The notes under the pieces are model-generated. The model worked only from the letters and a program-made list of their open reading frames with translations. It made no database searches and was not told the DNA's origin. The position numbers and the translations under genes were made by a program. Below, piece by piece: positions 2,164-34,533 of a DNA stretch of 64,000 nucleotides. The stretch comes from Arthrobacter sp. NicSoilC5 (lineage in GTDB: Bacteria > Actinomycetota > Actinomycetes > Actinomycetales > Micrococcaceae), in NCBI RefSeq assembly GCF_019977395.1, contig NZ_AP024660.1, positions 4,627,367-4,691,366 on the forward strand, in the 5' to 3' direction. Positions within the stretch are counted from its first letter, which is position 1, and each line of letters begins with the position of its first letter.

Positions 2164-4707
2164 GTGCGTATCCCACTTTCCTGGCTGCGGGAATTCGCAG
2201 CAGTACCGGCCGGAGCAACGGCCGAAGACGTCATGGAAGAACTGGTCAAGGTCGGCTTTGAAGAAGAAGCCGTCCACCGTCCCACGGACACCCTCCAGGG
2301 CCCCGTGGTGGTGGGCCAGGTCCTGAGCCTGGTCAAGGAACCGCAGACCAACGGCAAGACCATCAACTGGTGCCAGGTCCGCGTAGTCCCCGAAGGCAAG
2401 GAACAGACCCTCACCGGGGACGGCATCGACCCGTCCGGCGTCCAAGGCATCATCTGCGGCGCGCACAACTTCGTTGAGGGCGACAAAGTGGTGGTCACGC
2501 TTCCGGGCGCCGTGCTGCCCGGCGACTTCCGCATCTCCGCCCGCAAGACGTACGGCCACCTTTCCGCCGGCATGATCGCCTCGGTCCGCGAACTGGGCAT
2601 CGGCGAGGACCATGACGGCATCCTGGTGCTGTCCCGCATCGGGCTGGACCCTGAGGTGGGTACCGACGCCATGGAGCTCCTGGGCCTGTACGACCAGGCA
2701 GCCGAAATCAACGTCACCCCGGACCGCGGCTACGCCTTCTCCATCCGCGGCGTGGCCCGCGAATACGCGCACGCCACCGGCACCGCCTTCACGGATCCCG
2801 CCTCCAGGGTCCAGGCGCCGGCCGAACTTTCCGGCGGTTACGGCGTCAAGCTCAACGACGACGCCCCGATCTACGGCAAGGCCGGCTGCGACCGGTTCGT
2901 GGCCCGCACCGTCAGGGGCGTGGACGCCACCCGTCCCACCCCGCCATGGATGGTCTCCCGGCTCCGGCTCGCCGGCATCCGCTCCATCTCGCTGCCGGTG
3001 GACATCTCCAACTACGTCATGCTCGAACTGGGCCAGCCCACGCACTGCTATGACCTGGACAAGCTCTCCGGCGACATCGTGGTGCGCCGCGCCGCCGCAG
3101 GGGAGAAGATCACCACCCTGGACGGCAAGGAACGCACCCTTGACGCCGAGGACCTGCTCATCACCGACGACTCCGGCGCCATCGGCATCGCAGGCGTCAT
3201 GGGCGGCGCGGCCACCGAGGTGAGCGATTCGACGTCGAACATCCTGGTTGAGGCGGCGCACTTTGACGACGTGTCCATCGGCAGGTCCCGGCGCAGGCAC
3301 AAGCTGCCGTCCGAGGCGTCCAAGCGCTTCGAACGCGGCGTGGACTGGCAGGTGGCGGGCATCGCCGCCCAGCGCGTGGTGGACCTCCTGGTGGAACTGG
3401 CCGGCGGCACTGCCGACGAAGCCGGCACCGACGTCGGGACCGCCCCGGAAACCGTCACCATCGAGCTGCCCGCAGGCTTCGCTGCCGCACGGATTGGCAT
3501 CGACTTCACCGAAGACCAGATCGTCACCTCGCTTGAGGACCTGGGCGCCGTGGTGGCAAAGCACGACGCCGGGTGGACGGTGACGCCGCCGAGCTGGCGG
3601 AGCGACCTGGAGACCAAGGAAGACCTGACCGAGGAAATCGCCCGGCTGGTGGGCTACGACAAGATCCCCGCCACCCTGCCGGTCGCCCCTCCGGGCCGTG
3701 GCCTCACCCGTGTCCAGCAGCAGCGCCGCCGCCTCATCCAGGCACTGGCCGACGCCGGACTCACCGAGGTCCTGTCCTACCCCTTCGTCTCCAAGGCGGC
3801 CAACGACACCTTCGGCGTGGCCGACGAAGGAGGGGCGCGGACCGCCCTCAAGCTCGCCAACCCGATCAGCGAGGAGCACGGCTACCTGCGCACGTCCATC
3901 CTGCCCGGACTGATCGAGGTGGCCAAGCGCAACCACTCCCGTGGCTTCCGGGACCTGGCCCTGTTCGAATCCGGCCTGGTGTTCCTGCCCGAGGGGACAG
4001 TGGGCACGGCCTCCATCCCGCCGCTGGGTGCCAAGCCTGCCGATGAGGTTCTTGACGCTTTGTACGACGGCGTCCCGAACCAGCCGTTCCACATCGCGGC
4101 AGTCCTCACCGGCCACGATTCCCCGGCCGCCGCGTCCCACACGCCCCGTGTGTGGGACTGGGCCGACGCCCTGGACGTGGCCCGGCTTGCCGGCGACGTG
4201 CTGGGCGTGGACCTGGTGGTCAGCCAGGGCAGCCACCAGGCGTTCCACCCCGGCCGCACCGCCCGGCTGGCGCTGCGCACGGGGGAGACCGTTGGCTACG
4301 CCGGCGAACTGCACCCCAAGCTGCTGGCCGCCTCGGACATGCCCGCCCGTTCGGTGGCACTGGAACTTGATGCCGATGCCCTGTTCGAGGCCGCGCCGGA
4401 CGTGATTGTGGCCCGCCACATTTCCACGTTCCCGGTGGCCACCCAGGACGTGGCGCTCGTGGTCCCGGCCGACGTGGCGGCAGACGACGTCCTTGCCGCC
4501 CTGCGCGAAGGCGCCGGAGAGCTGCTGGAAGACGTGGCACTGTTCGACGTTTACGCAGGCAGGGGCATCGAGGACGGCAAGAAGTCGCTGGCCTTCGGGC
4601 TCCGCTTCCGGGCCGCCGACCGCACCCTGACCGCTGACGAGGCCTCGGCGGCGCGTGAAGGCGCAGTTGCGCTGGCTGCCGAACGCTTCGGAGCTGTCCA
4701 GCGGTAG
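2164..4707 (+). CDS. pheT: Phenylalanine--tRNA ligase beta subunit
   Basis: An 847-aa beta subunit. The GTG at 2164 is chosen because the protein then begins VRIPLSWLREF, the conserved PheT start; the open frame extends further upstream only inside pheS. In order come the N-terminal B1 region, a tRNA-binding EMAP-like domain (about 40-160, GIICGAHNFVEGDKVVV), B3/B4 editing domains (about 210-400, with GVMGGAATEVSD), B5 (about 410-480), the catalytic-like core (about 500-730) and a C-terminal ferredoxin-fold anticodon-binding domain ending ERFGAVQR. It edits Tyr-tRNA-Phe and positions tRNA. The length is typical. A strong inverted repeat starts 20 bases after the stop. Confidence 0.97.
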   Translation: MRIPLSWLREFAAVPAGATAEDVMEELVKVGFEEEAVHRPTDTLQGPVVVGQVLSLVKEPQTNGKTINWCQVRVVPEGKEQTLTGDGIDPSGVQGIICGAHNFVEGDKVVVTLPGAVLPGDFRISARKTYGHLSAGMIASVRELGIGEDHDGILVLSRIGLDPEVGTDAMELLGLYDQAAEINVTPDRGYAFSIRGVAREYAHATGTAFTDPASRVQAPAELSGGYGVKLNDDAPIYGKAGCDRFVARTVRGVDATRPTPPWMVSRLRLAGIRSISLPVDISNYVMLELGQPTHCYDLDKLSGDIVVRRAAAGEKITTLDGKERTLDAEDLLITDDSGAIGIAGVMGGAATEVSDSTSNILVEAAHFDDVSIGRSRRRHKLPSEASKRFERGVDWQVAGIAAQRVVDLLVELAGGTADEAGTDVGTAPETVTIELPAGFAAARIGIDFTEDQIVTSLEDLGAVVAKHDAGWTVTPPSWRSDLETKEDLTEEIARLVGYDKIPATLPVAPPGRGLTRVQQQRRRLIQALADAGLTEVLSYPFVSKAANDTFGVADEGGARTALKLANPISEEHGYLRTSILPGLIEVAKRNHSRGFRDLALFESGLVFLPEGTVGTASIPPLGAKPADEVLDALYDGVPNQPFHIAAVLTGHDSPAAASHTPRVWDWADALDVARLAGDVLGVDLVVSQGSHQAFHPGRTARLALRTGETVGYAGELHPKLLAASDMPARSVALELDADALFEAAPDVIVARHISTFPVATQDVALVVPADVAADDVLAALREGAGELLEDVALFDVYAGRGIEDGKKSLAFGLRFRAADRTLTADEASAAREGAVALAAERFGAVQR

Positions 4708-4726: not shown

Positions 4727-4776
4727 GGAAGGGCGGGTCATGGCGCAATGCGAAGTGCGCGCCATCCCGCCCTTCC
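4727..4776 (+). terminator. GC-rich hairpin after pheT covering the PPTase ribosome binding site
   Basis: GGAAGGGCGGG (4727-4737) pairs perfectly with CCCGCCCTTCC (4766-4776). Inside it, ATGGCGC (4740-4746) pairs with GCGCCAT (4759-4765); two bases (4738-4739) are bulged and the loop is about 12 bases. No T tract follows, so it is a weak candidate for an intrinsic terminator. The stem contains both the Shine-Dalgarno-like GGAAGGG and the ATG of the next gene, so it could instead or also limit translation of that gene. Confidence 0.6.
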
Positions 4777-5444
4777 TGCTGTCCGGGGAAGCGGCTGGGG
4801 TGCAGCAGGACGCCGAAGGCCTCCTGGACAGCGTCGAATTGGCGCGGGCCAAGGCTTTGCCGCCAGCCGCCGGCATTGCTTTTCTGGCCGGCCGGCTGGC
4901 GCAGCGGAGGCTCGCCGCGGAGCTGCTCTCACTTCCCGCCGCAGACCTCACCGTGGCCTACAGCTGCCCGCAGTGCGGAACCGGTCCCGGGGTGGGCCAC
5001 GGCCGGCCGGGATACAGCTATCGGGGTGCCCCCGTGCCGCTGGCACTGAGCTTGTCCCGGGCAGCGGGCTGGACATTGTTGGTGGCTGTGGTGGACGCCT
5101 CGCCGGGAACGCGGCTGGGCGCCGACATCGAGGATCCGTCCCGTACCGGCTTTGACGGGTTCGACGGGCTTGCCCTGACGCCTGCGGAGCGCCGGAACCT
5201 CCGGAACGTCAGGGTGGAGCTGCTGCCGGCGGCGAGGGCCAGGCTCTGGGCACGCAAGGAAGCCTGGCTGAAAATGACCGGTGACGGACTCCGGACTGCG
5301 CCGTCCACCGTGGACGTCAGCGGGCGTCCCGGCCTGCGGGACCTGGGCCCTGCTGAAACCGGGCTGCCCGCACACCTGGCCGCCGCCGTCGCACTCTCCG
5401 GACCCGTTCAGGCCAGCGGAAGCGGCGGCAGCGGCTCCTCGTAA
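4740..5444 (+). CDS. 4'-phosphopantetheinyl transferase superfamily protein (Sfp type)
   Basis: A 234-aa protein that would transfer phosphopantetheine from CoA to the serine of a carrier domain. Recognisable features are a CPQCG...GHGRP segment (about 79-91), common in actinobacterial Sfp-type PPTases; the Mg-binding GADIED (about 127-132); and WARKEAWLKMTGDGL (about 169-183), the classic W.(K/R)EA..K..G.G signature. The start ATG has a good Shine-Dalgarno sequence, GGAAGGG, but lies within a hairpin; GTG at 4800 is an alternative. The last 37 bases overlap the 3' end of the convergent M1 peptidase gene. The nearby Pls-like NRPS has a carrier domain needing this modification, so it is the obvious partner (inference). 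Confidence 0.88.
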   Translation: MAQCEVRAIPPFLLSGEAAGVQQDAEGLLDSVELARAKALPPAAGIAFLAGRLAQRRLAAELLSLPAADLTVAYSCPQCGTGPGVGHGRPGYSYRGAPVPLALSLSRAAGWTLLVAVVDASPGTRLGADIEDPSRTGFDGFDGLALTPAERRNLRNVRVELLPAARARLWARKEAWLKMTGDGLRTAPSTVDVSGRPGLRDLGPAETGLPAHLAAAVALSGPVQASGSGGSGSS

Positions 5445-6769
5445 AGCCATGGGTGCAGCAGCGGCTCCGCATCGACAGCTGTGGCGCTGCTGACCGCCAC
5501 GATGAAGTCCTGCGTCGTGACGGAGCCGTGCCTGTGACCGGCTGTCCAGTCCTGCAGGACGGCGAAAAAGGCGAGGTCGCCCACGGCCGTCCGGACGGCG
5601 TGCAGGGCCAGGGCGCCCCGCTTGTACACGCGGTCATCGAACATGCGCGCCGGACCGGGATCGCCCACCAGGATGTCCTGGTCCTCAGCCTGCAACCGCT
5701 GCCAGGCCGCCGCGGCCCGCTCCGCCACGGGCATGACACCGGCTTCCTCGGACCAGATCCACTCGGCATAGCAGGCGAAGCCCTCGTGCAGCCAGATGTC
5801 CTGCCACCCCGCAGCGGTCAGGGAATTGCCAAACCACTGATGCGACAGCTCATGGGCGATCAGGCGCTGGGACTCCCAGTCCAGGCCCAGGTGGTTGGGA
5901 CCCAGGATTGCCATCGACTGCGCCTCAAGCGGGATTTCCAGTTCGTCCTCGGTCACCACCACCGTGTACGCGGGAAACGGATAAGGGCCAAAGCAATTGC
6001 TGAAGGTGCGCATCATTGCCGGTTGCCGGGCCAGTCCTGTCCTGGCACGGTCCGCCAAGGCGTGGGAGACCGCCACGGACTGCGGAACCGGGGCCCCGTG
6101 CCGTCCGGCGTCCAGATCCAACGGCACGTACCTGCCAATCTGGACGGTCGCAAGATAGGCGGCCATCGGCTCCGCCTGTTCGTAGACCCAGGTTTCCCGG
6201 CTGGCGCGGGCCGTGTGCGATTGCAGTACGCCGTTGCACACCACCCGGTAGTTCGCTTCAGTGGTGACCGTGAACCGGTAGCTGGCCTTGTCCCCGGAGT
6301 GGTCGTTGCAGGGGAACCAGGAGGGGGCACCGTTGGGTTGCCCGGCCACCAGGACACCGTCCGTCAGTTCCTCCCAGCCCACCTCGCCCCAGGGGCCGCG
6401 CCGCGGCCGCGGGTTGCCCTCATAGCGCACCTCCAGGGTGAAGGGCTGTTCCGGTTCGAAGGGGGCTTGCGAGGTGACGACCAGCTGCCCGGCCCGCTGG
6501 CTGAACCGGAGCGGTTTGCGGCCATCCAGCAGGACCTTGGTGGCGCGCAGGCCAACGAGGTCCAGGACAATGGCCGACGTCGGAGCGCAAGTGACGCCGT
6601 GCAGCACCGCTTTGCCGCTGAGCCGGTTGCTGGCCACCCGGTAGTCCAGGTCCAGTTCGTACCGCTCGACGCGGAAGGCGTTTGTCCCGGCACCGGGCAG
6701 GTACGGGTCCGGGGAGGTTCCCGTGGCTGCGGGAATGCTGCCCCGGGCGGCTGATGCTGAAGAACTCAT
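5408..6769 (-). CDS. M1 family zinc aminopeptidase
   Basis: A 453-aa gluzincin. The zinc site is HELSH (306-310) with the third ligand Glu329 exactly 18 residues later (HEXXH-X18-E, in WLHEGFACYAEW). The usual GAMEN exopeptidase motif is replaced by EIPLEAQS (about 278-285), as in the short M1 subfamily. The protein covers the N-terminal beta domain and catalytic domain, without the long C-terminal domain of PepN. No signal peptide is clear. ATG 6769 is chosen because it has GAAGG upstream and lies 11 bases after the stop of the Pls-like gene, so the two probably form one transcript. In epsilon-poly-lysine producers an M1-type aminopeptidase degrades the polymer; the same role here is inference. 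Confidence 0.9.
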   Translation of the reverse strand: MSSSASAARGSIPAATGTSPDPYLPGAGTNAFRVERYELDLDYRVASNRLSGKAVLHGVTCAPTSAIVLDLVGLRATKVLLDGRKPLRFSQRAGQLVVTSQAPFEPEQPFTLEVRYEGNPRPRRGPWGEVGWEELTDGVLVAGQPNGAPSWFPCNDHSGDKASYRFTVTTEANYRVVCNGVLQSHTARASRETWVYEQAEPMAAYLATVQIGRYVPLDLDAGRHGAPVPQSVAVSHALADRARTGLARQPAMMRTFSNCFGPYPFPAYTVVVTEDELEIPLEAQSMAILGPNHLGLDWESQRLIAHELSHQWFGNSLTAAGWQDIWLHEGFACYAEWIWSEEAGVMPVAERAAAAWQRLQAEDQDILVGDPGPARMFDDRVYKRGALALHAVRTAVGDLAFFAVLQDWTAGHRHGSVTTQDFIVAVSSATAVDAEPLLHPWLYEEPLPPLPLA

Positions 6770-6780
6770 GGGACCTTCGG

Positions 6781-9700
6781 TTAGGTGGCAGGCGGCGATC
6801 CGGGCCCGCTCCATGGGCTGACCGGGTTACCCATCCAGTACGTCGCGGCGGGCACTGCTTCGCCGCGCATCACCAAGGATGCCGGCCCCACCGTTCCGCC
6901 GGCGCCGATGCTGGCCTGGGGAAGGATGACCCCGTGCGGGCCCATGGTGGCCCCGTCCTCGAGCGTAACAGCGTCAATGCTCATCACACGGTCGTGGAAC
7001 AGGTGCGTCTGCACCACGCAGCCCCGGTTGACCGTGGAATTCCTGCCAAGGGCCACCAGGTCGGCTTCAGGCAGCCAGTAGCTCTCGCACCACGTGCCGC
7101 TGCCAATTTTCGCCCCGAGCGCCCGCAGCCACCAGACCAGCGCGGGGGTGCCCGATGCTGCCCGGGCGAACCACGGCGCCGTGACCAGTTCGATGAAGCT
7201 GTCCACCACTTCGTTCCGCCAGATAAAGGAGCTCCACAGTGGATGTTCGCCGGGCCGGATCCGCCCCACCAGCACCCATTTCGCGGCGACGGACGCCCCT
7301 GCCGCCACGAGGCCCGCCAGCAGCATCACGACGCCGGTGAGCAGGGCGGCGGCGGCGTAGCCCCAGGTTGTTGCGATCCAGTCGAAGGCCAGCATGGTAC
7401 CGGCCGCGATGGCGACCGTGAGCATGACCGGCAGAAAGCGGCCCAGTTCCCACAGGGTGCGGGCGACTTTCAGCCGCGCCGGGGGCTGGAAAGTGCGCGA
7501 ATCGTCGGAGGCGATCGCGGTCCGCCGCAACCGGACGGGCGGGCTTCCCAGCCAGGAGGTGCCGGATTTTGCCTTCGCCGGTGTGGCGGACAGGACGGCC
7601 ACGAGTGAGTTCTTGGGGACGCTGCGTCCCGCGGCGGTCATGCCCGAATTGCCCAGGAAGGACCTTTTGCCGATCTTCGCCGGTGCCACCCGCAGCCAGC
7701 CGCCGTCGAGTTCGTAGGAGGCCACCATGGTGTCATCGGCGAGGAAGGCGCCCTCGCCCACGGTGGTCATCTTCGGTATCAGCAGCACGGTGGAGGCCTC
7801 GACGTTCTTACCGACCTTCGCGCCCAGCAGGCGCAGCCACACCGGCGTGAACAGGCTCGCGTAGATGGGGAAAAGCAGGTCCCTGGCCAGGTCCAGCACC
7901 CGCTCGGTGGCCCAGATCTGCCACCCCACCCGGCTGCGGATCCGGTAGTAGCCCTCCGTGATCCCGATGGAGAGGAGCCGCGTGGCAACCAGCACCAGGA
8001 CGGCGTTCGTGGCGAACCACACCAGCGATGCCGGAGCAAGGGCCGCCAGCAGCCGGGGGAGGGCCCCGGTCAGCGACGTACTGCCCTGGACGAAGGTGAA
8101 CGCGACCCACAGCGCGGCGGCAGCAGACAGGTACGGAATGAAGGACAGGCACGCAGACGCCAGGGAAAATCCGGCAAACCACGCACGTGCGGCAAACTTG
8201 CCCTGGGGCGGGGCATGTGGCACGCTGTGTTTGGCCTTGCCCTGCCGGCGGGCCGGTGAACCTGCGGCCAATTGGCCTGCCTTCACCTTCCCCAGCACCG
8301 CGGAACCGGCTTCCACCTGCGCCCCGGCCCCAATCGAGGCGCCGGGCATCAGCGTGCTGCGTGCACCCACGCTGGCACCGCGGCCAATGCGGATGGCCCC
8401 AATGTGAACGTCGTCGCCGTCGATCCACCAGCCTGACAGGTCCACCTCCGGTTCCACGTTGGCTCCGCTGCCGAGCGTCAGCAGCCCCGTGACAGGCGGC
8501 AGCGAATGAAGCTGGACGTCCCTGCCGATCTTCGCCCCCAGCGCCCGGGCGTAGTACGGCACCCAGGGCGCACTGGCGAGGCTGATGGCCCCTGCCAGGT
8601 CCTGGATCTGTTCCGCCAGCCACAACCGCAGGTGGACCCGCCCGGACCGGGGATAGATGCCTGGCCTGACGCCCCGGAGGAGGACCCTCGCGGCTGCGAT
8701 GGACAGCAGCATGCGCCCGGCCGGGCTGACGAACACCAGCCAGGACGCTGCCACCCACCACCACGAAATGGTCGGTGCAGCAGTAAATCCGGCGAGTCCG
8801 GCCAACAGGTTGTTGATTGCCATGAGGTAGGTCAGCCACCGCATGCCCACCAGGATGTGCAGCGGCACACCCATCAGTGTCTGGAAGACCTGCGACTTCC
8901 TGGCAGTTGGCCGCACCGTCCGCTCCCGCGCAGGAACGGAGTCCCCGGATTGGTTGACCTGCCGCGCCAGCTCCACCAGTGCCCCGACCCTCGGCGTCGC
9001 GTAAACATCGGCCACCGTGATGGTGGGGTAGCGGACCCTCAGCGCGGAGACCAGCTGGGCGGCGGACAGCGAACCGCCGCCGTAGGCGAAGAAGTCGGCG
9101 TCCAGCGATGTGACGGGGCTGCCCAGCACGCTGCTCCACTGTTCCACCACCCACGCGGCATCATCCGGAAGGTTCAACGGAGCGGCATCCGCCTCTGCGG
9201 CGCCTGCACCCGCCAGGGGCCACGGCAGGGCGTGCCGGTCCACTTTTCCGCTGGTCTTGGTGGGCAGCGAGTCAACTGTGGTCAACAATGGCACCAGCGC
9301 CGCCGGAAGGCTTGCCGCCAGCTGTTCCCGTGCGGCACCCAGGTCCATGTCGTGGCCCGGTGCGGGGGCAAGATAGCCCACCAGGATGTGGTTGCCTGCG
9401 GCGGTGGTCTGCACGGCGGCCGCCGCGCCGGCCACCCCGGGGAGGGCCTGCATGGCTGCGTCGATCTCGCCGAGTTCGATCCGGCGGCCGCCCAGCTTGA
9501 CCTGGTCGTCCGCGCGGCCCTGGAAGATCAGGCCCGCCTGTTCGAACCGCACGAGGTCCCCCGAGCGGTAAGCCCGCTCCCACCCCAGGCTGGGCATGGG
9601 CGCGTACTTTTCCGCGTCCTTGGCCGGATCCAGGTACCGTGCCAGCCCCACCCCGCCGATAATCAGTTCACCCGTTCCGCCCTCGGGCACCGGGACACCC

Positions 9701-10836
9701 GCGGCATCGACAACGGCAAGGTCCCAACCGTCCAGGGGCAGTCCGATCCGTATTGGTCCGGGGCCGCCCAGCGGCGCCGCGCACGCCACCACCGTTGCTT
9801 CCGTGGGGCCGTACGTGTTCCAGACCTCCCGGCCCTCCACGGCCAGGCGGTCGGCGAGTTCCGGCGGGCAGGCCTCGCCGCCGAAGATCAGGAGCCGGAC
9901 GTTTTCGAGGGATTCGGCGGGCCACAGGGCTGCGAGCGTGGGCACCGTGGAAACGGCGGTGATTGCGTGGTTGATCAGCCAGGGGCCGAGGTCCATGCCG
10001 GTGCGGACCAAGGCGCGCGGTGCGGGTACCAGGCAGGCGCCGTGGCGCCAGGCGAGCCACATTTCCTCGCAGGAGGCGTCGAAGGCAACCGAAAGGCCGG
10101 CCAGGACGCGGTCCTGCGGGCCGAGCGGATCATCCTGGAGGAAAAGCCGGGCCTCCGCATCGACGAAGGCTGCGGCCGAGCGGTGCTGGACGGCCACCCC
10201 CTTGGGTGTTCCGGTGGACCCCGACGTGAAGATGATCCAGGCGTCGTCCCCGGGTCCGGGCAGGCGCGCGCCCTTGAATGGACCGCTGCGTGCCGCACCT
10301 GCCGGCCCCGGCCCGACGGAGCCCCCGGCCCCCAGGACGGCTGCCACCCGGGCTTCGCCAAACACGAGCCGGGCCCGTTCTGCGGGATCGTCCGCATCCA
10401 CGGGAACGTAGGCTGCGCCCACCAGGAGGATGGCAAGGATGGAGACATACAGTTCGTTGGTGCCGGAGGGGATCCGCACGCCAATCCTGTCGCCGGCGCC
10501 CAGGCCGGCGAGGTGGAGCCGGCGTCCCGTGGCACGGACCTCGTCCAGCAATTGGGCGTAACTGAGCGACGTGCGGCCGTCATCCAGTGCCGAGGCGTCA
10601 GGAAACCGGGCGGCCGTGTCCTGCAGCACATCAATGAGGGTCCGGGCCGGCGGCGCCGCGGGAGCCCCGGCCAGCTGGGGCCGGAAAACGGCAACGCTGT
10701 GGCCGGCGTCCCCGGACTCCTGGTCCCGGCCGCCGGCTCCTGCACCGTCCCGGATGATGCTGGCTGGCTCCACGCCGGAACCGGAATCCCCAAAGGGGAC
10801 CTGCTGCTGAGTCACTTGCGCATTGTGCCGGGACAA
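6781..10836 (-). CDS. Pls/PosA-type non-ribosomal peptide synthetase (candidate cationic poly-amino-acid synthetase)
   Basis: A 1351-aa membrane NRPS. The adenylation domain (about 65-535) shows IIFTSGSTGTPKG (201-213), NTYGPTE (340-346), YRSGDL and catalytic Lys531 in TSGK. The carrier domain (about 555-625) has GGGSL with Ser589 as phosphopantetheine site. There is no condensation or thioesterase domain. The C-terminal half has three pairs of membrane segments (about 662-712, 886-955, 1134-1190) alternating with three hexapeptide/left-handed-helix domains (about 740-865, 990-1090, 1215-1345). This matches epsilon-poly-L-lysine synthetase (Pls, about 1300 aa), which chains free amino acids without a classical C domain. 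By-eye specificity residues read D-A-E-S-I-G-T-V-V-K, close to a lysine code. The start is uncertain: TTG 10836, or GTG 10815. The M1 aminopeptidase gene lies directly downstream. Confidence 0.88.
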   Translation of the reverse strand: MSRHNAQVTQQQVPFGDSGSGVEPASIIRDGAGAGGRDQESGDAGHSVAVFRPQLAGAPAAPPARTLIDVLQDTAARFPDASALDDGRTSLSYAQLLDEVRATGRRLHLAGLGAGDRIGVRIPSGTNELYVSILAILLVGAAYVPVDADDPAERARLVFGEARVAAVLGAGGSVGPGPAGAARSGPFKGARLPGPGDDAWIIFTSGSTGTPKGVAVQHRSAAAFVDAEARLFLQDDPLGPQDRVLAGLSVAFDASCEEMWLAWRHGACLVPAPRALVRTGMDLGPWLINHAITAVSTVPTLAALWPAESLENVRLLIFGGEACPPELADRLAVEGREVWNTYGPTEATVVACAAPLGGPGPIRIGLPLDGWDLAVVDAAGVPVPEGGTGELIIGGVGLARYLDPAKDAEKYAPMPSLGWERAYRSGDLVRFEQAGLIFQGRADDQVKLGGRRIELGEIDAAMQALPGVAGAAAAVQTTAAGNHILVGYLAPAPGHDMDLGAAREQLAASLPAALVPLLTTVDSLPTKTSGKVDRHALPWPLAGAGAAEADAAPLNLPDDAAWVVEQWSSVLGSPVTSLDADFFAYGGGSLSAAQLVSALRVRYPTITVADVYATPRVGALVELARQVNQSGDSVPARERTVRPTARKSQVFQTLMGVPLHILVGMRWLTYLMAINNLLAGLAGFTAAPTISWWWVAASWLVFVSPAGRMLLSIAAARVLLRGVRPGIYPRSGRVHLRLWLAEQIQDLAGAISLASAPWVPYYARALGAKIGRDVQLHSLPPVTGLLTLGSGANVEPEVDLSGWWIDGDDVHIGAIRIGRGASVGARSTLMPGASIGAGAQVEAGSAVLGKVKAGQLAAGSPARRQGKAKHSVPHAPPQGKFAARAWFAGFSLASACLSFIPYLSAAAALWVAFTFVQGSTSLTGALPRLLAALAPASLVWFATNAVLVLVATRLLSIGITEGYYRIRSRVGWQIWATERVLDLARDLLFPIYASLFTPVWLRLLGAKVGKNVEASTVLLIPKMTTVGEGAFLADDTMVASYELDGGWLRVAPAKIGKRSFLGNSGMTAAGRSVPKNSLVAVLSATPAKAKSGTSWLGSPPVRLRRTAIASDDSRTFQPPARLKVARTLWELGRFLPVMLTVAIAAGTMLAFDWIATTWGYAAAALLTGVVMLLAGLVAAGASVAAKWVLVGRIRPGEHPLWSSFIWRNEVVDSFIELVTAPWFARAASGTPALVWWLRALGAKIGSGTWCESYWLPEADLVALGRNSTVNRGCVVQTHLFHDRVMSIDAVTLEDGATMGPHGVILPQASIGAGGTVGPASLVMRGEAVPAATYWMGNPVSPWSGPGSPPAT

Positions 10837-10918: not shown

Positions 10919-11884
10919 CTAGGGAACCAGCAGGACTTTCCCGGTGGTCTTGCGGCCTTCGAGGTCGCGGTGCGCCTGCCCGGCCTGGCTGAGCGGGTAG
11001 CGTGCACCGATCCGGACCTTCAGGCTGCCGTCGGCTGCGGCGGCGAACACCTCGTCCGAACGCCAGCGCCGCTCCGCCGCGTCCCGCAGGTAGTGGCCCA
11101 TGGTGGGGCGCGTCAGGAACAGGGAGCCCGCGGCGTTGAGGCGCTGCGGGTCAAACGGCGGGACGGGCCCGGAAGCCGCCCCGAACAGCACCAGCATGCC
11201 CCGGATCCGCAAGGCTGCCAGGGAGCCGTCGAACGTATCCTTCCCCACGCCGTCGTAGACGACGTCGACGCCGGTACCGCTGGTGATGTCCCTGACCCGC
11301 TCCGCGAAGCCGTCGTAGCGCAGCACGTGGTGCGCGCCGGCTTCGAGCGCAAGCTGCTCCTTTTCGTCGGTGGAGACCGTGGTGATGACTTCCGCGCCCC
11401 GTGCCTTGAGCAGCTGGATCAGCAGCAGCCCCACGCCCCCGGCGCCCGCGTGCAGCAGGACCTTGTGGCCGGGCTCCACCTTGAAGGTGGAATTCATCAG
11501 GTAGTGGGCGGTGACGCCCTGCAGGGGGAGCGCTGCGGCAGTGAAAACATCCAGGCCTTTCGGTACGGGCAGTGCGGCATCCTCATCCACCAGCGCGTAG
11601 TCCGCGTAGCAGCTGATGCCTTCAGCGGTAGCCACCCGGCTGCCCACGGCGAAGCCGGTCACGCCCTCGCCGACTGCCTCGACAGTGCCGGCGGCCTCCG
11701 AACCTGGAGTGAAGGGGTAGGGGACTTTGTACGTTCCGCTGCGCTTATAGGTGTCGATGAAGTTGACGCCGGCCGCCCCGACCTTGACCAGCAGCTGCCC
11801 AGGGCCCGGAACGGGGGGCTCCGCCTCCGTGTACTCAAGGACTTCCGGTCCGCCTGCCTGCCGTGCGACGATTGCGTGCGTCAT
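10919..11884 (-). CDS. NADPH:quinone oxidoreductase / zinc-independent MDR family
   Basis: A 321-aa medium-chain dehydrogenase/reductase of the quinone oxidoreductase (QOR, ζ-crystallin) type that would reduce quinones or enals with NADPH. The N-terminal GroES-like domain carries VGAAGVNFIDTYKRSGTYKV, the QOR signature around residues 37-56. The Rossmann domain contains LLHAGAGGVGLLLIQL (about 143-158) and DVVYDGVGKDTFDGSL. No structural-zinc cysteine cluster is present. ATG 11884 is preferred over a longer frame because AAAGGAG lies eight bases upstream. The gene ends 82 bases before the start of the Pls-like gene on the same strand, so co-transcription is possible. It is divergent from argC. 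Confidence 0.9.
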   Translation of the reverse strand: MTHAIVARQAGGPEVLEYTEAEPPVPGPGQLLVKVGAAGVNFIDTYKRSGTYKVPYPFTPGSEAAGTVEAVGEGVTGFAVGSRVATAEGISCYADYALVDEDAALPVPKGLDVFTAAALPLQGVTAHYLMNSTFKVEPGHKVLLHAGAGGVGLLLIQLLKARGAEVITTVSTDEKEQLALEAGAHHVLRYDGFAERVRDITSGTGVDVVYDGVGKDTFDGSLAALRIRGMLVLFGAASGPVPPFDPQRLNAAGSLFLTRPTMGHYLRDAAERRWRSDEVFAAAADGSLKVRIGARYPLSQAGQAHRDLEGRKTTGKVLLVP

Positions 11885-11991
11885 GGCTCTCCTTTCGCGG
11901 GTCCCGGCGTCTCCGGCCCCGGCTGCCGAAACCATCCTAGGGACACTCCCGGGCGGCACGACAAGTGCCGCGTTACCCGGACGCGCTCGAA

Positions 11992-12025
11992 TGCATAATT
12001 ATCAGTACCAATGCATAACTATTGC
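11992..12025 (+). promoter_or_regulatory. Two ARG-box-like ArgR operators before argC
   Basis: TGCATAATTATCAG (11992-12005) and TGCATAACTATTGC (12012-12025) are two similar AT-rich imperfect palindromes with a 20-base period, about two helical turns. They sit immediately upstream of the argC -10 element in otherwise G+C-rich DNA. ArgR hexamers in other bacteria bind such paired boxes in the presence of arginine, and argR is in the same operon. Confidence 0.75.
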
Positions 12026-12027
12026 TG

Positions 12028-12033
12028 TATAGT
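12028..12033 (+). promoter_or_regulatory. argC -10 element, predicted leaderless start
   Basis: TATAGT ends six bases before the argC ATG, placing the expected transcription start on or next to the start codon. The second ARG box lies directly upstream and would block RNA polymerase when occupied. Confidence 0.6.
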
Positions 12034-12039
12034 CGGAGC

Positions 12040-13071
12040 ATGACTATTTCTGTTGCGGTTTCGGGAGCCAGCGGCTACGCCGGGGGAGAGGTCCTCCGCC
12101 TCCTTGCCGGGCACCCCGGTGTGACCATTGGCGCCATCACAGCCCACAGCAACGCCGGTTCCCGCCTCGGTGAACTCCAGCCCCACCTGCACGGGCTGGC
12201 CAGCCGCATCCTCGAGGACACAACGGTGGAGAACCTCTCCGGCCACGACGTCGTGTTCCTTGCCCTGCCGCACGGCGCCTCCGCGGAGATCGCCGCCCAG
12301 CTGCCGGAGGGCACGGTGGTCATCGACGCCGGCGCAGACCACCGGCTTGAGGACCCCGCCGCCTGGGAAAAGTTCTACGGCTCCGCCCACGCCGGCACCT
12401 GGCCCTACGGCCTTCCCGAGCTGCCCGGCCAGCGTGAAGCCCTCAAGGGCGCCAAACGCATCGCCGTTCCCGGGTGCTACCCCACGTCCGCCCTGCTGGC
12501 CCTGACCCCCGGGTTCGCCGCGCACCTGCTGGAGCCCGACGACGTCGTGATCGTTTCCGCGTCCGGCACCTCAGGCGCGGGCAAGGCCGCCAAAGTCAAC
12601 CTGATCGGCTCGGAGGTCATGGGCTCCATGAGCCCCTACGGCGTAGGCGGCGGCCACCGGCACACGCCGGAAATCGAGCAGGGCCTGTCCAACGCGGCGG
12701 GGGAGCAGGTCACCGTATCCTTTACGCCCACCCTTGCCCCGATGAGTCGCGGCATCCTGACCACCGCCACGGCCAAGGTCAAGGCCGGCACCACGGCGGC
12801 GGAACTGCGCCTGGCCTGGGCCGAGGCGTACGAAGATGAGCCGTTCGTCCACCTGCTGCCGGAAGGCCAGTGGCCCACCACCAAATCGGTCCAGAGCTCC
12901 AACCATGCCGCCATGCAGCTGGCCTTCGACGCCCACACCGGCCGGGTCATCGTCACCTGCGTCATCGACAACCTCACCAAGGGCACTGCCGGCGGCGCCG
13001 TGCAGTCCATGAACATCGCACTCGGCCTGCCGGAAACCGCCGGCCTCAACCTGCAGGGAGTAGCCCCGTGA
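12040..13071 (+). CDS. argC: N-acetyl-gamma-glutamyl-phosphate reductase
   Basis: The 343-aa enzyme reduces N-acetylglutamyl phosphate to the semialdehyde using NADPH, the third step of arginine synthesis. An N-terminal Rossmann motif [16 protein letters not shown] (about 7-22) binds NADPH, and the catalytic cysteine is Cys146 in [17 protein letters not shown] 12040 is chosen because it gives the standard N-terminus and follows a TATAGT element. Its stop overlaps the argJ GTG by four bases (GTGA), so the genes are translationally coupled. Two ARG boxes upstream predict arginine repression. Length and motifs are normal. Confidence 0.97.
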
Positions 13072-29090: not shown

Positions 29091-34240
<5,150 letters not shown>

Positions 34241-34400
34241 CCACACAGAAAAACATTCTGCTTGCGTCCACTATGTGGTTCCCAACCAACAACCCTGTTG
34301 GCGGAACCTAACAATTGAATACAACACCACCCCCTGCCCACGGGCAGGGATGTTGTAACCACAAGACTTCCCAACCCCCTGCGGGGTTCGGGTACAAGGG

Positions 34401-34517
34401 TTACGGCGGTCATAGCGTGGGGGAAACGCCCGGTCCCATTCCGAACCCGGAAGCTAAGACCCACAGCGCCGATGGTACTGCACCCGGGAGGGTGTGGGAG
34501 AGTAGGTCACCGCCGGA
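34401..34517 (+). rRNA. rrf: 5S ribosomal RNA
   Basis: Starts TTACGGCGGTCATAGCG and ends GTCACCGCCGGAAC, with complementary ends (GGCGGT/ACCGCC). The central CCCATTCCGAACCCGGAAGC is the conserved loop. About 117 bases, 160 bases after the 23S end; limits are by eye. Confidence 0.95.
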
Positions 34518-34533
34518 ACAACTATTAATGGTC

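Follow-up and report, generated by a model that had tools for sequence, protein, structure and literature searches.

Does a group of genes beside pheT in Arthrobacter sp. NicSoilC5 encode a module for epsilon-poly-L-lysine, a natural food preservative, and, if so, where would the peptidase encoded behind the synthetase act? The initial annotation of the window (the whole 64,000-nucleotide stretch of DNA that was analysed, from a genome of 4.69 Mb in a single contig) had proposed a compact module of synthetase, activating phosphopantetheinyl transferase (PPTase) and polymer-trimming M1 aminopeptidase. On the combined evidence of the domain layout, the substrate pocket, an adenylation (A) domain 68% identical to that of S. 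albulus Pls and an M1 enzyme homologous to PldII, we consider an epsilon-poly-L-lysine module, including proposed loading, polymerisation and export steps and an internal peptidase, to be the best explanation of the locus, with a probability of about 0.85.

Layout of the locus and family of the synthetase

The open reading frame (ORF) list placed pheS, pheT and the PPTase gene on the forward strand, the M1 peptidase gene, pls and a quinone reductase gene on the reverse strand, and argC on the forward strand. The names pheT and argC are presumptive, being read from the sequences of these genes. The features are as follows.

2164..4707, + strand: pheT, left border of the module and marker for the tree (ORF)
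4740..5444, + strand: Sfp-type 4'-phosphopantetheinyl transferase (ORF, Pfam, genome search)
5408..6769, - strand: PldII-type M1 metallopeptidase with HELSH motif (ORF from 6814; likely start ATG 6769)
6781..10836, - strand: pls, epsilon-poly-L-lysine synthetase homologue (ORF; TIGR02353, 707 bits)
9217..10641, - strand: A domain, residues ~66-540 (alignment to 7wew, pocket, 68% identity)
8968..9153, - strand: carrier (thiolation) domain, residues 562-623 (PF00550)
9070-9072, - strand: phosphopantetheine site Ser589 (Ser in 172/172 aligned rows)
6820..8889, - strand: Pls C-terminal polymerisation half, residues 650-1339 (TIGR02353, hydropathy, AlphaFold, fold matches)
10919..11959, - strand: quinone oxidoreductase-like gene, right border of the module (domain matches)
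12022..13071, + strand: argC, right flank of the site (ORF)

The pls product is 1351 aa from a TTG whose choice as start is uncertain, and its protein-database entry (P0001) has 1344 aa. The likely start of the M1 gene lies 11 bases past the pls stop, a spacing that is probable. The PPTase gene is convergent, with a 37-base tail overlap with the peptidase gene, and begins 32 bases after pheT. Elsewhere in the window, a complete 16S-23S-5S rRNA operon occupies 29091-34518 (+), and ARAGORN found no tRNA genes in the window.

Pfam matches in the Pls protein were confined to AMP-binding, PP-binding and hexapeptide repeats, and neither Pfam nor NCBIfam searches found a condensation or thioesterase domain. 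A profile search for the Pls C-terminal domain, proposed earlier as a check, gave a whole-length match to TIGR02353, the NCBIfam model of the Pls/PosA family. The AlphaFold model (pLDDT 89.7) folds the C-terminal half into three repeats of membrane helices and a left-handed beta-helix, with beta-helices read from the model at residues ~767-867, 1006-1104 and 1242-1342. Six membrane helices alternating with the three C1-C3 domains were indicated by both the model and the family-mean hydropathy, as against four from the hydropathy of the single sequence. Together, these data bear out the architecture that had been read from the ORF, an A domain, a Ser589 carrier and a six-helix, three-beta-helix C-terminal half with no condensation or thioesterase domain.

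The best solved relative of the A domain was 7wew, the S. albulus epsilon-poly-lysine synthase (659 bits; next 384), with 68% identity over 481 columns; A domains of eight relatives with a DFE-type pocket were all lower, at 36-41%. The pocket residues D253, A254, E257, S296, I317, G319, T341, V350, V351 and K531 (DAESIGTVVK) are identical in 7wew at all ten positions, as read by eye from the alignment, and recur in 156/172 aligned rows, the window counted. In passages of PMC10522769 the residue at pocket position 2 is linked to the substrate: Ala goes with lysine, Met with ornithine, and Phe with the shorter diamino acids. The named protein most similar to the synthetase came from Pseudarthrobacter niigatensis (97% across 92% of the query), and on this basis we take the strain for a Pseudarthrobacter.

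A phylogeny of 106 rows (FastTree, long branches) placed the window Pls among Micrococcaceae Pls and largely mirrored families. S. albulus Pls, the sole reference and present as the 7wew A domain covering 36% of columns, was separated, together with the window, from all eight DFE-type rows by a branch with support 100. The earlier assignment to a Pls-type synthetase of the epsilon-poly-lysine kind thus agrees with the pocket, the A-domain identity and the tree. One synthetase, L227 (L227:3711-7700), combines a lysine pocket with 60% A-domain identity to S. albulus Pls, but its whole protein sits on the DFE side, which indicates that pocket and clade can part; its A domain and polymerisation half may come from different sources, as in a mosaic.

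A second Pls/PosA-family synthetase, in frames of 1382-1464 aa with the pocket DFECLSVVTK, was observed in L193, L194, L195, L196 and L197 (genomes G082, G078, G117, G075 and G014), and no M1 match was found in these five stretches. The Phe at position 2 suggests that their product may be a diaminobutyrate or diaminopropionate polymer.

Three genes that come and go together

Among 150 genomes of the genus, Pls scored above the cut-off in 123, the PPTase match occurred in the same 123 (lists compared by eye), and an M1 gene was present in the stretches from all 122 other Pls-positive genomes as well as in the window. The remaining 27 lacked Pls, a PldII-type M1 and the PPTase match in these searches. 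Their best M1 matches had E-values of 3.5e-12 to 2.6e-17, apart from G142 (4.9e-46, in a 767-aa frame) and G134 (68% complete; no M1 match). A family search with PF01648 gave at least two matches in 122 of the 123 Pls genomes and one in G027 (68% complete); in the 27 Pls-less genomes it gave one in 25, none in G118 (63% complete) and two in G099.

Pls and M1 lay on the same strand with M1 downstream in 121/122 positive stretches, the other (L078) being without Pls. In two of the 121 (L125, L145) pls was reduced to remnants, and a further seven Pls frames were broken or shorter than 1290 aa, one of which (L088) was a script artefact. The M1 gene was split into two frames in L085, L108, L143 and L174. 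The PPTase was a convergent neighbour in 105 of the 121 stretches, on the same strand in 5 and absent from the stretch in 11, in five of which (G014, G046, G080, G129, G139) it stood beside pheT; in six Pls genomes (G002, G091, G102, G128, G137, G140) the match was away from the module. Both pheT and argC were present in 95 of the positive stretches. No whole pls was found at the site in G018, G072 and G094, which retain both neighbours and each have another Pls-family match above the cut-off, with the pocket DAESIGTVIK in G018 and G094.

Deletion or a remnant of the native pls, with peptidase and PPTase kept, was noted in L078, L125 and L145 (with L191 and L192). A second Pls-M1 pair was present in G020 and G093. 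Pls-peptidase pairs of another lineage were seen at other chromosomal sites (L072, L077, L081, L104, L117, L167, L173, L177, L189, L190), with Pls identities of 71-73%.

The pheT flanks of the 27 negatives read pheT-qor-argC in 14 and pheT-qor in 9, with no further match in 4. In these 23 genomes the quinone reductase lay within 1.5 kb of pheT, its match starting less than 170 bases from pheT in 22 and at 865 in L254, and no Pls, M1 or PPTase was found in the 1.5-kb pheT flank of any of the 27. In eight genomes (G009, G016, G021, G048, G061, G122, G130, G135) the module was elsewhere, with no adjoining pheT, quinone reductase or argC; the pheT flank (1.5 kb) of six of these had a quinone reductase and no module gene, and that of the other two gave no further match. 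The site is also empty in the sister genome G026, whose pheT protein is 98% identical to that of the window.

In a pheT phylogeny covering 147 genomes, Pls switched between present and absent no fewer than 17 times in the best tree, and no fewer than 13 times when supported branches alone are counted. The tree gives no direction of change; module loss is suggested by the shared site together with the gene tree, and because pheT adjoins the module, regional exchange could add changes of state. In 13 independent pairs defined by supported branches, the second PF01648 gene tracked Pls in 11.9 on average, showed no difference in 1.1 and never ran opposite to it.

The window's genome contains two PF01648 matches, the module PPTase and a 132-aa frame that we take for AcpS; the former is a member of the superfamily distinct from AcpS. 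It co-occurs with Pls and is the putative activator of the Pls carrier. Four carrier-domain matches, including Pls, were found in this genome, and an 874-aa adenylation-carrier-membrane protein outside the window (L006:55-2679, near C1:2004840-2007464) could be a second client. What was first proposed of the PPTase holds in part: it adjoins Pls and comes and goes with it, but it is convergent and outside the operon, so a compact module in the sense of a single operon is not supported.

Across the class, TIGR02353 scored above the cut-off in 73/296 genomes. The peptidase adjoined pls in 37/45 class loci and 76/80 named loci, and a convergent PPTase was next door in 8/45 and 27/80, respectively. 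Lysine-pocket Pls without an M1 match occurred in L212, L227 and L241, and M1 was not adjacent to pls in four named loci (Tsukamurella, Williamsia). With the S. albulus A domain as query, matches at E up to 1e-150 were found in 166/392 genomes of the genus of G409, which is Streptomyces, judging from its named Pls relatives. In G409-group genomes, Pls C-terminal halves were also seen in frames of only 816-946 aa (e.g., G373:C1:396970-399081), which leave no room for an in-frame A domain.

The M1 peptidase and the proposed site of polymer breakdown

The reference for PldII was taken from two Streptomyces loci (L377, L378) whose Pls A domains are 94% and 93% identical to that of S. albulus; it was matched by place and length, not by accession. 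The gene directly behind pls in both encodes an M1 enzyme, which in L377 has 467 residues, equal to the 1404-bp length given for pldII in passages of PMC9223678. The window enzyme carries the M1 zinc motif HELSH and is 41-42% identical to these two. Sequence comparison and its place behind pls make it a PldII homologue, and the M1 aminopeptidase initially noted behind the synthetase, probably 11 bases downstream, is thereby confirmed.

No hydrophobic N-terminus was found in the window enzyme, the best 15-aa mean being 0.42 versus 1.65 (L377) and 1.36 (L378). Only one of 119 M1 rows of the genus, the window counted, exceeded the hydropathy mark. That row (L093) was rejected as an exported M1, as its hydrophobic stretch was A-domain sequence and an artefact. 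Four of 43 M1 rows from outside the genus passed (L244, L245, L377, L378). The N-termini of the PldII homologues in L377 and L378 are Tat-like (RRALIRG and RRALLRG, respectively), unlike those of nearly all other pls-linked M1 enzymes.

Parts of PMC9223678 give the location of PldII as outside the membrane; they also describe incipient dissolution of the cells in repressed strains, an effect interpreted there as pointing to self-protection. Judged by its N-terminus, the window enzyme is not predicted to be exported in this way and looks cytosolic, with the caveat that an M1 enzyme without a hydrophobic N-terminus may still be exported by another route. The initial reading of a polymer-trimming enzyme is not supported for a secreted product: neither the window enzyme nor its relatives in the genus show a signal peptide, in contrast to the Tat-like PldII of near-S. 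albulus strains.

This pattern raises the alternative, which we regard as unlikely, that epsilon-poly-lysine is not a secreted antibiotic here and instead has an internal or cell-surface role (polyanion or phosphate binding, adhesion, a lysine store), being recycled by a cytosolic M1. The broad agreement of the Pls tree with families and the failure to detect polymer from C. variabile, described in passages of PMC8117764, are in keeping with such a role, as is the missing export signal in 118/119 genus rows. However, the Streptomyces product is described as exported and antimicrobial (PMC8117764 and PMC9223678, in part), and the presence or absence of the whole module, seen repeatedly, is more in line with an ecological trait than with a core role.

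Proposed function and comparison with known systems

A Pls-family synthetase of a different cationic polymer, from ornithine, diaminobutyrate, diaminopropionate or beta-lysine, is highly improbable. According to passages of PMC10522769 the family makes all four of these kinds, and DFE-pocket synthetases occur in the same genus, but all ten pocket positions of the window Pls, including the Ala tied to lysine, equal those of S. albulus Pls, the pocket of the ornithine enzyme PosA is DMEHNGTVSK, and both the A-domain identities and the Pls tree point to lysine. Least probable of all is that the PPTase and M1 are housekeeping genes beside pls by chance, for although the PPTase is on the opposite strand close behind pheT, the window's genome has another adenylation-carrier protein and six Pls genomes have the PPTase match elsewhere, the three genes are absent from the same 27/150 genomes, the second PF01648 gene never opposes Pls in the independent pairs, and the three genomes without native pls but with both neighbours have another Pls-family match.

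In the epsilon-poly-L-lysine module that we favor, the PPTase would attach the phosphopantetheine arm to Ser589, and the A domain would adenylate L-lysine and load the carrier. The membrane-embedded C-terminal half, with its three-fold beta-helix array, would then use the epsilon-amino groups to join lysines, yielding a short cationic polymer for release across the membrane. Polymer staying in or returning to the cell would be hydrolysed by the M1 peptidase, giving self-protection and lysine recovery. Family, pocket, predicted fold, gene linkage and joint presence and absence were observed here; we infer substrate, polymerisation and export from characterised relatives, and the cytosolic site and protective role of the peptidase are presumed. 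Against this explanation stand the absence of product from cultured C. variabile, the mismatch of pocket and clade in L227, a possible second client of the PPTase, the PPTase away from the module in six genomes, the PF01648 counts of G099 and G027, and lysine-pocket loci in which M1 is not adjacent or gave no match.

We speculate further, with doubt, that a cytosolic PldII-type peptidase is the usual companion of pls beyond the S. albulus group and that the two form a make-and-destroy pair, the synthetase being harmful without an internal antidote. If true, this would explain the M1 gene in all 123 Pls genomes of the genus, the three genes coming and going together at least 13 times, and the silence of producers in culture, and export of PldII in relatives of S. 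albulus would have arisen secondarily, along with high secretion. Two draft genomes with a split M1, G027 and G092 (68% and 90% complete), speak against it, as their pls is whole.

The locus itself was expected. Such a function had been called little described in Arthrobacter-type bacteria, but passages of PMC8117764, PMC12025171 and PMC11078813 already report such loci. The first describes Pls homologues in Arthrobacter and seven other coryneform genera, Glutamicibacter and Micrococcus among those named, with the same or very similar pockets. The other two list clusters that antiSMASH assigned to the NAPAA (epsilon-polylysine-like) type, from Pseudarthrobacter and further Micrococcaceae. In PMC11078813 NAPAA is stated for every one of the nine Antarctic strains, which belong to Micrococcaceae and Dermatophilaceae; epsilon-poly-lysine clusters in Agrococcus and Microbacterium are noted in parts of PMC12067966. 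Added here are the three genes seen coming and going together and a breakdown enzyme that appears intracellular; neither joint absence with the PPTase nor a missing M1 export signal was found reported in the open-licence literature searched. The missing signal offers a concrete hypothesis for the apparent silence of coryneform producers. One chromosomal site that is full or empty in close sisters of one genus (the window versus G026) is also a natural experiment, in which matched strains could show what epsilon-poly-lysine is worth ecologically and what the peptidase does.

Of the known systems, the Pls-PldII pair of S. albulus resembles the window in domain order, the ten-residue pocket, A-domain identity (PDB 7wew) and an M1 peptidase directly behind pls (compared in two near relatives of S. 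albulus). It differs in a 4-bp overlap between the two genes (PMC4361855, in part), whereas the window probably has a gap of 11 bases, and in the reported location of PldII outside the membrane. C. variabile Pls (WP_041630296.1), compared by the description in passages of PMC8117764, is similar in coming from a non-filamentous actinobacterium, in its architecture and in its operon with a peptidase; its pls yielded epsilon-poly-lysine in S. coelicolor, while C. variabile itself gave no product in culture. The NAPAA clusters share genus or family and cluster type with the window but are antiSMASH predictions only, and the passages of PMC12025171 and PMC11078813 do not treat peptidase or PPTase. 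PosA of Acinetobacter baumannii belongs to the same superfamily, with six helices and three left-handed beta-helices modelled (PMC10522769, in part), and is set apart by its pocket, its ornithine substrate and its product, delta-poly-L-ornithine.
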